From contig NZ_LJCP01000011.1 in NCBI RefSeq assembly GCF_001399755.1, positions 248,001-312,000 of the forward strand: a stretch of 64,000 bases of DNA. The letters are read 5' to 3'. Each line of letters starts with the position of its first letter. Position 1 is the first letter of the stretch. This stretch comes from Thiohalorhabdus denitrificans (GTDB lineage Bacteria > Pseudomonadota > Gammaproteobacteria > Thiohalorhabdales > Thiohalorhabdaceae). Below, piece after piece: positions 17,503 through 21,106 of the stretch. The position numbers were made by a program, and so were the translations under genes. Below the pieces are notes generated by a model. It saw only the letters and a program-made list of their open reading frames with translations. It was not told the origin of the DNA and did no database searches.

Positions 17503-18879
17503 TTGTCCCACTCCTCCGGCCCCCCTGCCCCGGCCCTCGACGAGATCGTCACCAGCCGCGACCAGCTGGTCCGCTACCTGGAGGCCGGCTCCAAGCCGCG
17601 CACCGAATGGCGCATCGGCACCGAGCACGAGAAGTTCGCCTTCGAGGTGGATACCCTACGCCCCCTCGACTTCGACGGCGAACGGGGGATCGAGAAGGTG
17701 CTGCGGGGGCTGACCCGCTTCGGCTGGCAGCCCACGGAGGAGGACGGCCGGGTCATCGGCCTGAAGCTGGGGAAGGGCTCGGTCACCCTGGAGCCGGGCG
17801 GTCAGGTGGAGCTCTCCGGCGAGCCCCTGGACTCCCTCCACGACACCTGCCGGGAGGTGAACGAGCACCTCAAGGAGGTCAAGGAGGTGGCCGACCCCCT
17901 GGATGTGGCCTTCCTGGGCGTGGGCTTCCAGCCCAAGTGGGCGCTTGCCGACATCCCGCGGATGCCCAAGAAGCGCTACCGCATTATGACCGAGTACATG
18001 CCCACCCGGGGCGGCCACGCGCTGGAGATGATGTACCGCACCGCCACCGTGCAGGCCAACCTGGACTTCGGCTCCGAGGCGGACATGATCCAGAAGTTCC
18101 GGGTGGGCCTGGCCCTGCAGCCTGTCGCCACCGCCCTGTTCGCCAACTCGCCGTTCACCGAGGGCCGGCCCAACGGCTACCTGAGCTACCGCTCCCAGAT
18201 ATGGATGGACACCGACCCGGACCGCTGCGGCGACCTGCCCTTCGTCTTCGAGTCCGGCATGAGCTTCGAGCGCTACGTGGACTACGCCCTGGACGTGCCC
18301 ATGCTGCTGGTGCTGCGCAACGGCGAGGCGGTGGACGCCTCCGGGCAGTCCTTCCGCGATTTCATGGCCGGCAAGCTGCCGGCCCTGCCGGGGGAGCACC
18401 CCACCCTGGAAGACTGGGAGACCCACCTCACCACCCTGTTCCCGGAGGTGCGGCTCAAGCACTTCCTGGAGATGCGCGGGGCTGACGGCGGCCCCTGGAG
18501 CCGGCTGTGCGCCCTGCCCGCCCTGTGGAAGGGCCTGCTCTACGACACGGCGGCCCAGGACGCCGCCTGGGACCTGGTGAAGGACTGGACCGCCGAGCAG
18601 CGCTGGCGCCTGCGCGCCGAGGTGCCGGAGAAGGCCCTGAACGCCGAGATCGGCGGGCGCACGGTGCGCGAGATCGCCCGCGAGGTGCTGACCATCGCCG
18701 AGGACGGCCTGCGCCGCATCGACCGGCGCAACGACAGCAACCAGGACGAGCGCGTCTTCCTCGCCGACCTGTTCGAGGTGGTGGACCAGGGCCGCACCCC
18801 CGCCGAACTGCTGCTCGACGAGTACCACAACAAGTGGCACGGCGATATCGACCCCCTCTTCCGGGAGCATGCCTACTAA
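17503..18879 (+). CDS. gshA: Glutamate-cysteine ligase, plant/alphaproteobacterial type
   Basis: 458 residues; joins glutamate and cysteine in the first step of glutathione synthesis. It belongs to the GCS2/TIGR01436 type: RIGTEHEKFAFEVDT near residue 40, SVTLEPGGQVELSG, FLGVGFQPKW, MPTRGGHALEMMYRTATVQANLDF and the C-terminal SNQDERVFLADLFEVVDQGRTPAELLL. This type differs from E. coli GshA. The TTG at 17503 is used as start because an AAGGAAG lies 7-13 nt before it and no better ATG fits. No gshB is in the window. Confidence 0.92.
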   Translation: MSHSSGPPAPALDEIVTSRDQLVRYLEAGSKPRTEWRIGTEHEKFAFEVDTLRPLDFDGERGIEKVLRGLTRFGWQPTEEDGRVIGLKLGKGSVTLEPGGQVELSGEPLDSLHDTCREVNEHLKEVKEVADPLDVAFLGVGFQPKWALADIPRMPKKRYRIMTEYMPTRGGHALEMMYRTATVQANLDFGSEADMIQKFRVGLALQPVATALFANSPFTEGRPNGYLSYRSQIWMDTDPDRCGDLPFVFESGMSFERYVDYALDVPMLLVLRNGEAVDASGQSFRDFMAGKLPALPGEHPTLEDWETHLTTLFPEVRLKHFLEMRGADGGPWSRLCALPALWKGLLYDTAAQDAAWDLVKDWTAEQRWRLRAEVPEKALNAEIGGRTVREIAREVLTIAEDGLRRIDRRNDSNQDERVFLADLFEVVDQGRTPAELLLDEYHNKWHGDIDPLFREHAY

Positions 18880-18998: not shown

Positions 18999-19682
18999 TC
19001 AGGCCCCCACGATGCGCAGCATCTGGTTGACGCCCTTCTGCGACTCGTAGTCCACCTGCACCACCTCGCTGGGATTTCCAGCCTTGTCCAATGCCCGCCG
19101 CACCGGTTCCAGGTGGCGCGACCGGCGGGCGTTCAGGTCCGCCAGGGGAAAGACCCGCACCTCCCGGGCCAAGCCGGCCAGCTCTTTTAGCGCCCCGGCG
19201 TGGAAGGCCTCCTCCAGGTGGTCGCTGTAGAGGAATAGCAGATGCGAGACCAGAGCGAGGTCGAACCGCCTCGCCGCGAAGGGCAGCCCCGGCAGGCTGG
19301 CGGCCACGTAGCGGCCCTCCCGCAGGCCGGCCGGATAGTCGGCCAGGAAGGCCTCCATGGCGGTCCGCCGCAGGGCCACCAGCTCCTCCGGGCTACCGCT
19401 GCGGTCCCAGCGGAACTTCTCCCGGTTGCGCCGGAGCTGGACCACCATCTCCGGCACCACCTCGTCGATGCGTGCGCGGATGGCCCCCGCCGTGAAGGCG
19501 TAGACGGGATCCGCGGAGATTACCCGCCCGCCTTGCCGGGTCAGCTCGGCGTTGAAGACGGCCGGTCCGCCGCCGCAATCCAGGATTGGGCAGGACCGGT
19601 CCGCCTCATCCAGGGCGAACATGTCCACGTACTCCCGGTAGGAGCGGCCGAAGGGAACAATGTCTTGCAGGTCGAAGGCCAC
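18999..19682 (-). CDS. Class I SAM-dependent methyltransferase-like protein
   Basis: 227 residues with a Rossmann methyltransferase pattern: motif I LDCGGGPAVFNAEL near residue 34, an acidic residue at the end of strand 2 (VISADP), and FDLALVSHLLFLYSD as motif IV region. The acceptor cannot be deduced. GTG start at 19682 with AGGAGA upstream. It follows the acetyltransferase gene by 36 nt on the same strand, so the two form an operon downstream of a leader peptide and terminator. Confidence 0.75.
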   Translation of the reverse strand: MAFDLQDIVPFGRSYREYVDMFALDEADRSCPILDCGGGPAVFNAELTRQGGRVISADPVYAFTAGAIRARIDEVVPEMVVQLRRNREKFRWDRSGSPEELVALRRTAMEAFLADYPAGLREGRYVAASLPGLPFAARRFDLALVSHLLFLYSDHLEEAFHAGALKELAGLAREVRVFPLADLNARRSRHLEPVRRALDKAGNPSEVVQVDYESQKGVNQMLRIVGA

Positions 19683-19718: not shown

Positions 19719-20195
19719 CTACAGGGCCAGCTTCATTTTGCGGCCGCCCGCTACGGTGAGCCCCTCGCGCTCGTAGAAGGCGTAGGTCCGCTCGAAGGCC
19801 GGCAGCGGCGGGGTGGTGAGCTCCAGTCGCCCCCATTCCCGCTCTCGCCCCAACCGGCGAACCGCATTCAGTAGCTCCCGGCCGACGCCCTGCGAGCGCC
19901 ACTCCGGGCGCACGTAGAATTCCGGGACCAGCCCAAAGGCGCCCCCGGCGTACAGGGCGTGGGCCTCGGTCACGTTGATCAGGCCCAGGGGCCCCACCTC
20001 CCTCTCCTTCCGCGCCAGAAAGGAGCGGTAGGTCCCCGCGCGCAGCCAATCGGCCGTGCGGGCCCGGGTGGCCTCCCGGTCGAAGTGGAAATGGGGCTGG
20101 CCGGTGGCGGTCATGATCTCCCCCAACAGCTCTTCCACACCCGCGGCGATGCACGGGGCGTCCTCCGGCACCGCCTCCCTGATCTCCCAGTCCAT
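19719..20195 (-). CDS. GNAT family N-acetyltransferase
   Basis: 158 residues with a GNAT fold: IREAVPEDAPCIAAGVEELLGEI at the start, LINVTEAHALYAGGAFGLVPEFYVRPEWRSQGVGRELL split over residues 80-120 as the acetyl-CoA site (RSQGVG being the Q/RxxGxG/A loop), and AFYEREGLTVAGGRKM at the end. The substrate is unknown. ATG follows a GGAG site. A Trp-rich leader peptide and terminator lie directly upstream, which suggests attenuation control of this gene and the next. Confidence 0.85.
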   Translation of the reverse strand: MDWEIREAVPEDAPCIAAGVEELLGEIMTATGQPHFHFDREATRARTADWLRAGTYRSFLARKEREVGPLGLINVTEAHALYAGGAFGLVPEFYVRPEWRSQGVGRELLNAVRRLGREREWGRLELTTPPLPAFERTYAFYEREGLTVAGGRKMKLAL

Positions 20196-20218
20196 GGCGC
20201 TCTCCGTTCCAAAGGCAC

Positions 20219-20257
20219 AAAAAAAGCCGCAGGTCCTCGCGTGGGAACCTGCGGCTT
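20219..20257 (-). terminator. Strong terminator hairpin (possible attenuator) before the acetyltransferase gene
   Basis: On the minus strand an 11-bp perfect stem, AAGCCGCAGGT with ACCTGCGGCTT, is followed directly by a run of T residues. It lies 26 nt after the leader peptide stop and about 24 nt before the acetyltransferase ATG. It could end the NAD(P)H oxidoreductase transcript, or serve as an attenuator for the acetyltransferase-methyltransferase operon. Confidence 0.85.
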
Positions 20258-20282
20258 CGCGGATGGTATGCGGGTCAGGCTG

Positions 20283-20387
20283 TCAGCCGGCCGTCACACG
20301 CTCCTTTCCAACGACGCACAGGGTCCCGCCCAGCTCGGCTAGGCGCCACCAGCGGCGTCGAATGGAAACGTGGACGACCGGTTGCAT
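20283..20387 (-). CDS. Putative leader peptide with tandem Trp codons
   Basis: 34-codon ORF starting ATG after an ACGGAAA site. Its centre reads RRRWWRLAELGG: three Arg codons, two adjacent TGG codons and another Arg. It ends 26 nt before a perfect terminator hairpin and sits in an otherwise AT-richer stretch; a weak promoter (TTGTCT at 20431-20426 and CATAAG at 20406-20401, 19 nt apart) lies just upstream. This is the arrangement of trp-type attenuators. No trp gene follows; the downstream genes are an acetyltransferase and a methyltransferase. Translation is not proven, and the peptide could also be a chance ORF. Confidence 0.5.
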   Translation of the reverse strand: MQPVVHVSIRRRWWRLAELGGTLCVVGKERVTAG

Positions 20388-20512
20388 GTTTTTTCCGTGT
20401 CTTATGCTTTCCGGAAGGTACAAACAGACAAAATACGTCCCGGCCCATGCCTTGGCAAGGACCAGAAAGGATCCTGATCTAATGGCCTTTTCACCGGCAG
20501 AAGCCGGTGCCT

Positions 20513-21106
20513 TCAGGTGGCGGCGCTCACCAGCCCGTTCTCCCGGACGTAGCCACCCGCCAGCTCCCGCACCTCGCGGAGCCACTCATCTCGCTGCTCC
20601 GGGGTGCTGCCGGCCACCGGCGCGAAGACGCGGCGTCGGACATCCGCCACCCCGCAGGGCCGGAACACGCCGTCCCGCCAGATGCCCTCCAGGGGATCGT
20701 TCGCGGGCTCCCCCTCCCCGGGGGCATCGGCGGTGTTCAGCACCAGAGCGGCCTCGCCTTGGAGCAGCCCCTGCGGGGGCCAGCCGCCCCCCGGCGGTCG
20801 CTGGTAGGCCACCCCTTCCTGGAACACCAGGTCCAGGTAGCCCTTGAGCATGGCGGGCGGCTGGCCCCACCAGTCGGGATGGATGACGATGTAGCCATCC
20901 GCCTCCTGCAGGTCGCGGACGTAGCGCTTGGTGTGCGGATCGGCGCTCTTGCGGAAGGACAGGACGGGATCGAGCCCGTCGCCGTACGGGTCATGGACCG
21001 CGAAGTCGCCGCCCGCCTCCCGGATGGCCTCCTTGGCGGCCTCGGCCATGGCGGCGTTGAAGCTTTCCGGGCTGGGATGCCCGTAAATGATCAGGATCCG
21101 GCTCAT
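20513..21106 (-). CDS. NAD(P)H-dependent flavodoxin-fold oxidoreductase
   Basis: 197 residues of the flavodoxin-like fold 2 family (KefF/MdaB/YwrO relatives), FMN-dependent quinone or nitro reductases. The start ILIIYGHPSPESFNAAMAEA is the phosphate-binding loop, followed by DGYIVIHPDWWGQPPAMLKGYLDLVF, the signature IHPxWW-P-ML-G segment. No potassium transporter gene lies nearby, so a KefF role is not indicated. ATG at 21106 has AAGGGGGA upstream; the longer reading to 21145 lacks a site. Confidence 0.88.
   Translation of the reverse strand: MSRILIIYGHPSPESFNAAMAEAAKEAIREAGGDFAVHDPYGDGLDPVLSFRKSADPHTKRYVRDLQEADGYIVIHPDWWGQPPAMLKGYLDLVFQEGVAYQRPPGGGWPPQGLLQGEAALVLNTADAPGEGEPANDPLEGIWRDGVFRPCGVADVRRRVFAPVAGSTPEQRDEWLREVRELAGGYVRENGLVSAAT

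Follow-up and report, generated by a model that had tools for sequence, protein, structure and literature searches.

We describe a leader in Thiohalorhabdus denitrificans that we read, at a probability of about 0.68, as a ribosome-mediated transcription attenuator placed ahead of a GNAT-family acetyltransferase gene and a SAM-dependent methyltransferase gene. Textbook accounts link Trp-codon attenuators to trp genes, and trp operon attenuators with the leader peptide trpL are familiar from E. coli, rhizobia, and Corynebacterium and Streptomyces. The leader described here, which lies in a 64,000-nucleotide stretch of DNA analyzed as a whole (the window), is by its target genes not a trp operon attenuator. 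Our reading is based on the computed parts of the leader, the conservation of those parts, the mutually exclusive structures that they form, and covariation. The parts and the two downstream genes all lie on the minus strand of the window, as follows.

20430-20458, minus strand: predicted sigma-70-like promoter, TTGCCA-17 nt-TATTTT, from a pattern scan
20283-20387, minus strand: leader ORF of 34 codons, ATG at 20387 to TGA at 20283, MQPVVHVSIRRRWWRLAELGGTLCVVGKERVTAG (starts MQPVVHVSIRRRWWRLAELGG)
20343-20360, minus strand: candidate control codons R10 R11 R12 W13 W14 R15 (CGA CGC CGC TGG TGG CGC), identical in DNA in the congener
20351-20346, minus strand: tandem Trp codons
20349-20360, minus strand: region 1, the anti-antiterminator arm, which overlaps the control codons and forms pairs with region 2 in each of the two species
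20312-20327, minus strand: region 2, GGGACCCUGUGCGUCG, the partner of region 1 or region 3, from folding
20262-20299, minus strand: 38-nt invariant block, which folds into a hairpin (20299-20266) within the loop of the antiterminator, from the consensus and stalled-ribosome folds
20244-20257, minus strand: region 3, the terminator 5' arm, common to the antiterminator, from folding
20217-20238, minus strand: region 4, the terminator 3' arm and T run, kept in the congener
19719-20195, minus strand: GNAT-family acetyltransferase, 158 aa, the first gene 3' of the attenuator (Pfam Acetyltransf_1, E 4.3e-8)
18999-19682, minus strand: SAM-dependent methyltransferase, 227 aa, the second gene (Methyltransf_11 and fold matches)

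The original prediction placed RRRWWR at the center of a 34-codon ORF, a perfect 11-bp terminator hairpin beyond it, and an acetyltransferase and a methyltransferase gene just downstream, and the measured layout bears this out; the gap from ORF to hairpin, given there as 26 nt, is 24-25 nt from the stop codon to the terminator stem. The intrinsic terminator (20258-20223, minus strand) has the stem AAGCCGCAGGT/ACCTGCGGCTT with 11 perfect base pairs, or 14 pairs with G-U included, a loop of 8, and then a T run. It stands between the promoter and the GNAT gene, an arrangement kept in the congener, and the GNAT start codon follows only ~23 nt 3' of the T run, so that transcription of the GNAT gene from the leader promoter would need read-through. 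On the other side of the methyltransferase gene, a plus-strand gene whose product appears glutamate-cysteine-ligase-like converges on it and ends at 18879; the controlled unit should therefore comprise two genes.

In the consensus fold of the two species, one hairpin (region 1:2) spans the control codons, a second is that of the conserved block, and the third is the terminator. Region 2 resembles the terminator 3' arm. To mimic a stalled ribosome, the 5' part of the RNA was masked and the RNA was ended at region 3, before region 4; in both species, region 2 then paired with region 3 and enclosed the block hairpin. The attenuation layout that had been proposed from the sequence thus acquires its antiterminator, a region 2:3 helix that is exclusive with the terminator and with the region 1:2 helix, and that carries compensatory changes in the second species; the control codons, as in known attenuators, overlap region 1.

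A codon-by-codon scan of ribosome positions puts the probability of region 2:3 pairing at 0.78 to 0.80 for codons 5 to 17 in the window and at 0.84 to 0.94 for codons 3 to 18 in the congener. The probability has dropped to 0 once the ribosome reaches codons 21-22; without a ribosome it is 0.000 and 0.003 in the two species. We used E. coli trpL, its sequence confirmed against E. coli genomes, as a positive control, and a similar scan gave 0.62 to 0.64 from L7 to R12, with 0.62 at its Trp codons, and 0 at the stop. The computed profile is thus shared by both species and E. coli trpL: a ribosome at the control codons yields the antiterminator, and a ribosome at the stop yields the terminator. 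Among 300 dinucleotide-shuffled leaders for each species, 1 and 2 matched the gain in pairing, and none in either set matched the difference between stalled and free states. All of these folds are thermodynamic and were computed on truncated RNAs; they are not kinetic models. A full-length transcript favors the terminator over other structures, as it should if the switch works by timing. The whole transcript folds far more stably than its shuffles (z = -4.25; z = -3.88 in the congener).

In the alignment, the antiterminator helices of the two species fall on the same columns (63-74 with 136-148), and five pairs differ between them: A-U to G-C with both sides changed, G-C to G-U, C-G to U-G, U-G to C-G, plus a position mismatched in the window but paired in the congener. 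The changes in region 2 also remain pairable with region 1, where the region 1:2 helix and its apical stem show G-C to G-U, G-U to G-C, U-G to U-A, and a two-sided A-U to G-C. This covariation amounts to few events, as it comes from two sequences, and none in the core helices goes against the model. Swapping region 2 against region 3 between the species was uninformative in one direction.

Three genomes of the order were compared, including the congeners G001 and G002, the latter 82% complete. In G001 the element sits at the orthologous place, with the same upstream oxidoreductase and dinB and the same downstream methyltransferase. Its promoter reads TTGCAA-17 nt-TATTTT (L013:1438-1466), with hexamers and spacing kept, as read by eye since the aligner misplaced the region. 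Its leader ORF is MQPVLSVSIRRRWWRLAEPGGDLRVVRKGV, in which IRRRWWRLAE is identical and the ORF end is shortened by a 1-nt deletion, and its terminator lies at the same place with a longer stem. The peptide core and the terminator are thus both kept in a relative, and loss of the WW codons did not appear there. From the leader ATG to the terminator the two species are 86% identical, compared with 60-75% at the third codon positions of four neighboring genes. Within this segment, the 38-nt block GTGTGACGGCCGGCTGACAGCCTGACCCGCATACCATC (20262-20299, minus strand) is 100% identical in G001; this is explained in part by its own hairpin and by the other pairing open to it, with the long hairpin's 5' arm, but pairing alone would not require, and hardly explains, complete invariance over 38 nt. 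The methyltransferase is intact in G001 (78% amino acid identity), whereas of the GNAT gene only a 3' remnant is left, beside an intact attenuator (L013:1585-1690, L034:10583-10850), so that the terminator stands ~267 nt from the methyltransferase gene, compared with 536 nt in the window. The leader segment is absent from the 82% complete G002, in which the region is rearranged after dinB.

These comparisons bear directly on the simplest alternative, that an intergenic terminator happens to lie beside a random short ORF with WW. Such ORFs are indeed common, and the 64-kb window holds 22 of them; just one of the 22, the leader ORF, has a strong hairpin with T5 within 120 nt. Orthologous conservation above the neutral level, the compensatory changes, and the shuffle tests leave the chance explanation largely refuted and, in our estimate, very improbable.

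Translation of the leader is the less certain side of the attenuator. The predicted ribosome-binding site of the leader ORF is weak (-3.5 and -5.8 kcal/mol). Outside IRRRWWRLAE, substitutions show little third-position bias and the end of the frame shifts between the two species, which makes for modest coding evidence as judged from the sequences. Such drift outside the core would suit a leader peptide of no importance in itself; it is no evidence for translation. These points count against the attenuator reading, as do its reliance on two sequences with the segment absent from a third congeneric genome, downstream genes without a known Trp link, and the loss of the GNAT gene in G001. We infer translation of the leader ORF, the Trp signal, and a physiological purpose as parts of the model.

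Under the attenuator reading, RNA polymerase would start near position 20423 and make the leader. If a ribosome read the leader ORF smoothly, or if none were loaded, region 2 would be covered or paired with region 1; with region 2 unavailable, the terminator (3:4) would form and a leader RNA of ~205 nt would be released. A ribosome stalled at RRRWWR would cover region 1; the two Trp codons are the likeliest site of such a stall, under a shortage of charged tRNA-Trp. Region 2 could then pair with region 3 around the block hairpin, the terminator would be blocked, and the GNAT-methyltransferase operon would be transcribed. A shortage of tryptophan, or possibly of arginine, would thus probably switch the operon on.

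Which amino acid is sensed is not singled out by structure alone, as any stall at about codons 5-17 opens the antiterminator, and the control codons in this permissive stretch comprise four Arg and two Trp. We favor tryptophan because tandem Trp is less likely by chance: at local composition, the probability of WW in any 13 residues is 0.0018, compared with 0.036 for at least four Arg in 13, Arg making up 10% of residues locally. We favor it also because tandem Trp is a known signature of trp attenuators, including WWR in E. coli trpL. The same attenuator could instead respond to arginine supply or to slow reading of CGA-CGC-CGC. Its first Arg codon is an invariant CGA, a rare codon that fills 5 of the 296 Arg positions in the genes sampled, and Arg codons in the leader orf34 control Salmonella speF (PMC6386406); yet a cluster of Arg is the easier one to meet by chance, and CGC is the commonest Arg codon. 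We consider an arginine signal unlikely.

Any early stall opens the antiterminator, and the attenuator might sense ribosome-stalling antibiotics and control detoxifying enzymes, a role for which an acetyltransferase and a methyltransferase downstream are plausible. Drug-responsive ribosome-mediated attenuators are known, for example those of BmrC/BmrD (PMC4191407) and VmlR (PMC9226507). The GNAT is otherwise generic and weakly similar to AAC(3)-XI; as an aminoglycoside acetyltransferase it fails, at 25.5 bits against a family cut-off of 300, and is no recognized resistance enzyme. An antibiotic sensor would also leave the conserved WW unaccounted for, and the congener has lost the GNAT gene but kept the leader. 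Such a sensor seems to us a poor prospect, less probable than an arginine signal.

The genes under the leader were predicted not to be trp genes, and the trp clusters do lie on contigs other than that of the attenuator. We found no match to TrpR in the genus, and no WW leader with a terminator at the species' own trpEGDC and trpF-trpB-trpA clusters (L033 and L079) or at the congener's trpE region. Together with the leader's own promoter and strong terminator, its survival of GNAT decay, and the 38-nt invariant block, these absences lend some credit to a stand-alone small RNA (or peptide) gene whose main role is in trans and not in cis at the GNAT operon. A precedent exists in rnTrpL and peTrpL, which act in trans in S. 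meliloti (PMC7298713). The methyltransferase nevertheless still lies downstream in the congener, a conserved antiterminator would be purposeless in a pure small RNA, and at the trp gene starts tested, duplex energies were no outliers against 29 controls, in what was a crude test. On this evidence a purely trans-acting gene is improbable, on a par with the arginine signal. If the leader is an attenuator, either the operon is linked to Trp supply through a need not apparent in these data, or the 205-nt leader, once released, has a second role in trans. More speculatively, in a genus that lacks TrpR and has no Trp attenuator at the trp clusters examined, this leader, the one Trp-codon attenuator that we found, could be the cell's sensor of Trp starvation at a nonbiosynthetic locus. 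It would switch the methyltransferase in cis, and its released 205-nt RNA, with the 38-nt block, would act in trans on other genes, among them perhaps the trp operons; we regard this proposal as doubtful.

The leader works like ribosome-mediated attenuators of the trp/his type, and every testable architectural feature of that type was found. Support is good for this mechanism class and modest for the signal. With trp operon attenuators it has in common a promoter, a short ORF with tandem UGG, regions 1:2, 2:3, and 3:4, and an intrinsic terminator before the first gene, and with E. coli trpL the WWR motif and a similar folding profile. Unlike a trp operon attenuator, it precedes a GNAT gene and a methyltransferase gene, with no genes of trp biosynthesis, transport, or tRNA-Trp under its control, and unlike trpL it has a longer ORF (34 codons, ending past region 2), a conserved hairpin enclosed by the antiterminator helix, and no Rfam match. 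Even Trp attenuators beyond biosynthesis, such as that of trpS in Streptomyces, still concern Trp (PMC1262725).

Other known leaders are partial likenesses. The Sinorhizobium meliloti system shares a released attenuator RNA, a Trp-containing leader ORF (Trp-rich in rnTrpL), and possible action in trans; rnTrpL, however, precedes trpE(G) and has trpDC mRNA and multidrug efflux genes as known targets (PMC7298713), whereas the present leader precedes GNAT/methyltransferase and a trans role for it would be by analogy. The Salmonella speF leader orf34 is likewise a short leader ORF in which consecutive Arg codons time the progress of the ribosome (PMC6386406), but it acts via Rho, RNase G, and translation, has no known sequence relation to ours, and has no reported tandem Trp control. 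In the BmrCD and VmlR attenuators, a stalled ribosome likewise opens an antiterminator before genes outside amino acid synthesis; these differ in coming from Bacillus, in having resistance genes downstream, and in that no tandem Trp control codons are claimed for them.

Relatives of the leader appear confined to the genus. An RNA model, R1, run over 369 genomes of the class and 398 of the phylum recovered only the two congeners and two weak matches, of which L041 is a transposase reading frame and L042 an unrelated terminator; no homologue appeared outside the genus. A DNA search of 56 relatives gave only short random matches outside the genus, and the leader peptide, searched against plasmids, gave only chance matches. 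Upstream of methyltransferase homologues in other taxa there was no comparable WW leader with a terminator (L050 has one WW ORF without a strong terminator), and no such leader precedes GNAT homologues of 45-49% identity. Rfam gave no match at gathering score and no trp leader family even at E values up to 10; the near-matches BcKCsr2, P17, Xoo2, and STnc40 fell far below their gathering scores and were driven by the terminator. In the congener, the segment L013:1498-1671 scored 24.7 bits against the Burkholderia small RNA BcKCsr2 (cut-off 40) and 22.8 bits against the Pseudomonas small RNA P17 (cut-off 45), mostly over the terminator. Our searches of the open-access literature turned up no Trp-codon attenuator reported ahead of a GNAT/methyltransferase pair.

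If our reading is true, a conserved attenuator wired to an acetyltransferase/methyltransferase pair would mean that amino acid starvation switches can be recruited to other functions, and the claim is directly testable through its three-state architecture (1:2, 2:3, 3:4) with compensatory changes. It would also offer a handle on the function of the uncharacterized methyltransferase, whose structure is a small, generic class I fold with no clue to its substrate. Methyltransf_11 was matched in all 6 of 6 homologues of this protein (best E 7.3e-5), its fold matches are methyltransferases, and its relatives come from cyanobacteria, actinobacteria, and others. A second copy of the family (51% identity) lies elsewhere in the genome, at L061 (G000:C7:146068-146736), without an upstream WW leader. 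At the other end of the locus, the upstream neighbor is a gene for a flavodoxin-fold NAD(P)H oxidoreductase, which ends at 20513. Directly 3' of it lies a GC-rich hairpin without a T run (20485-20512, minus strand; CACCGGCTTCTGCCGGTG), which may insulate the leader promoter from the oxidoreductase gene.
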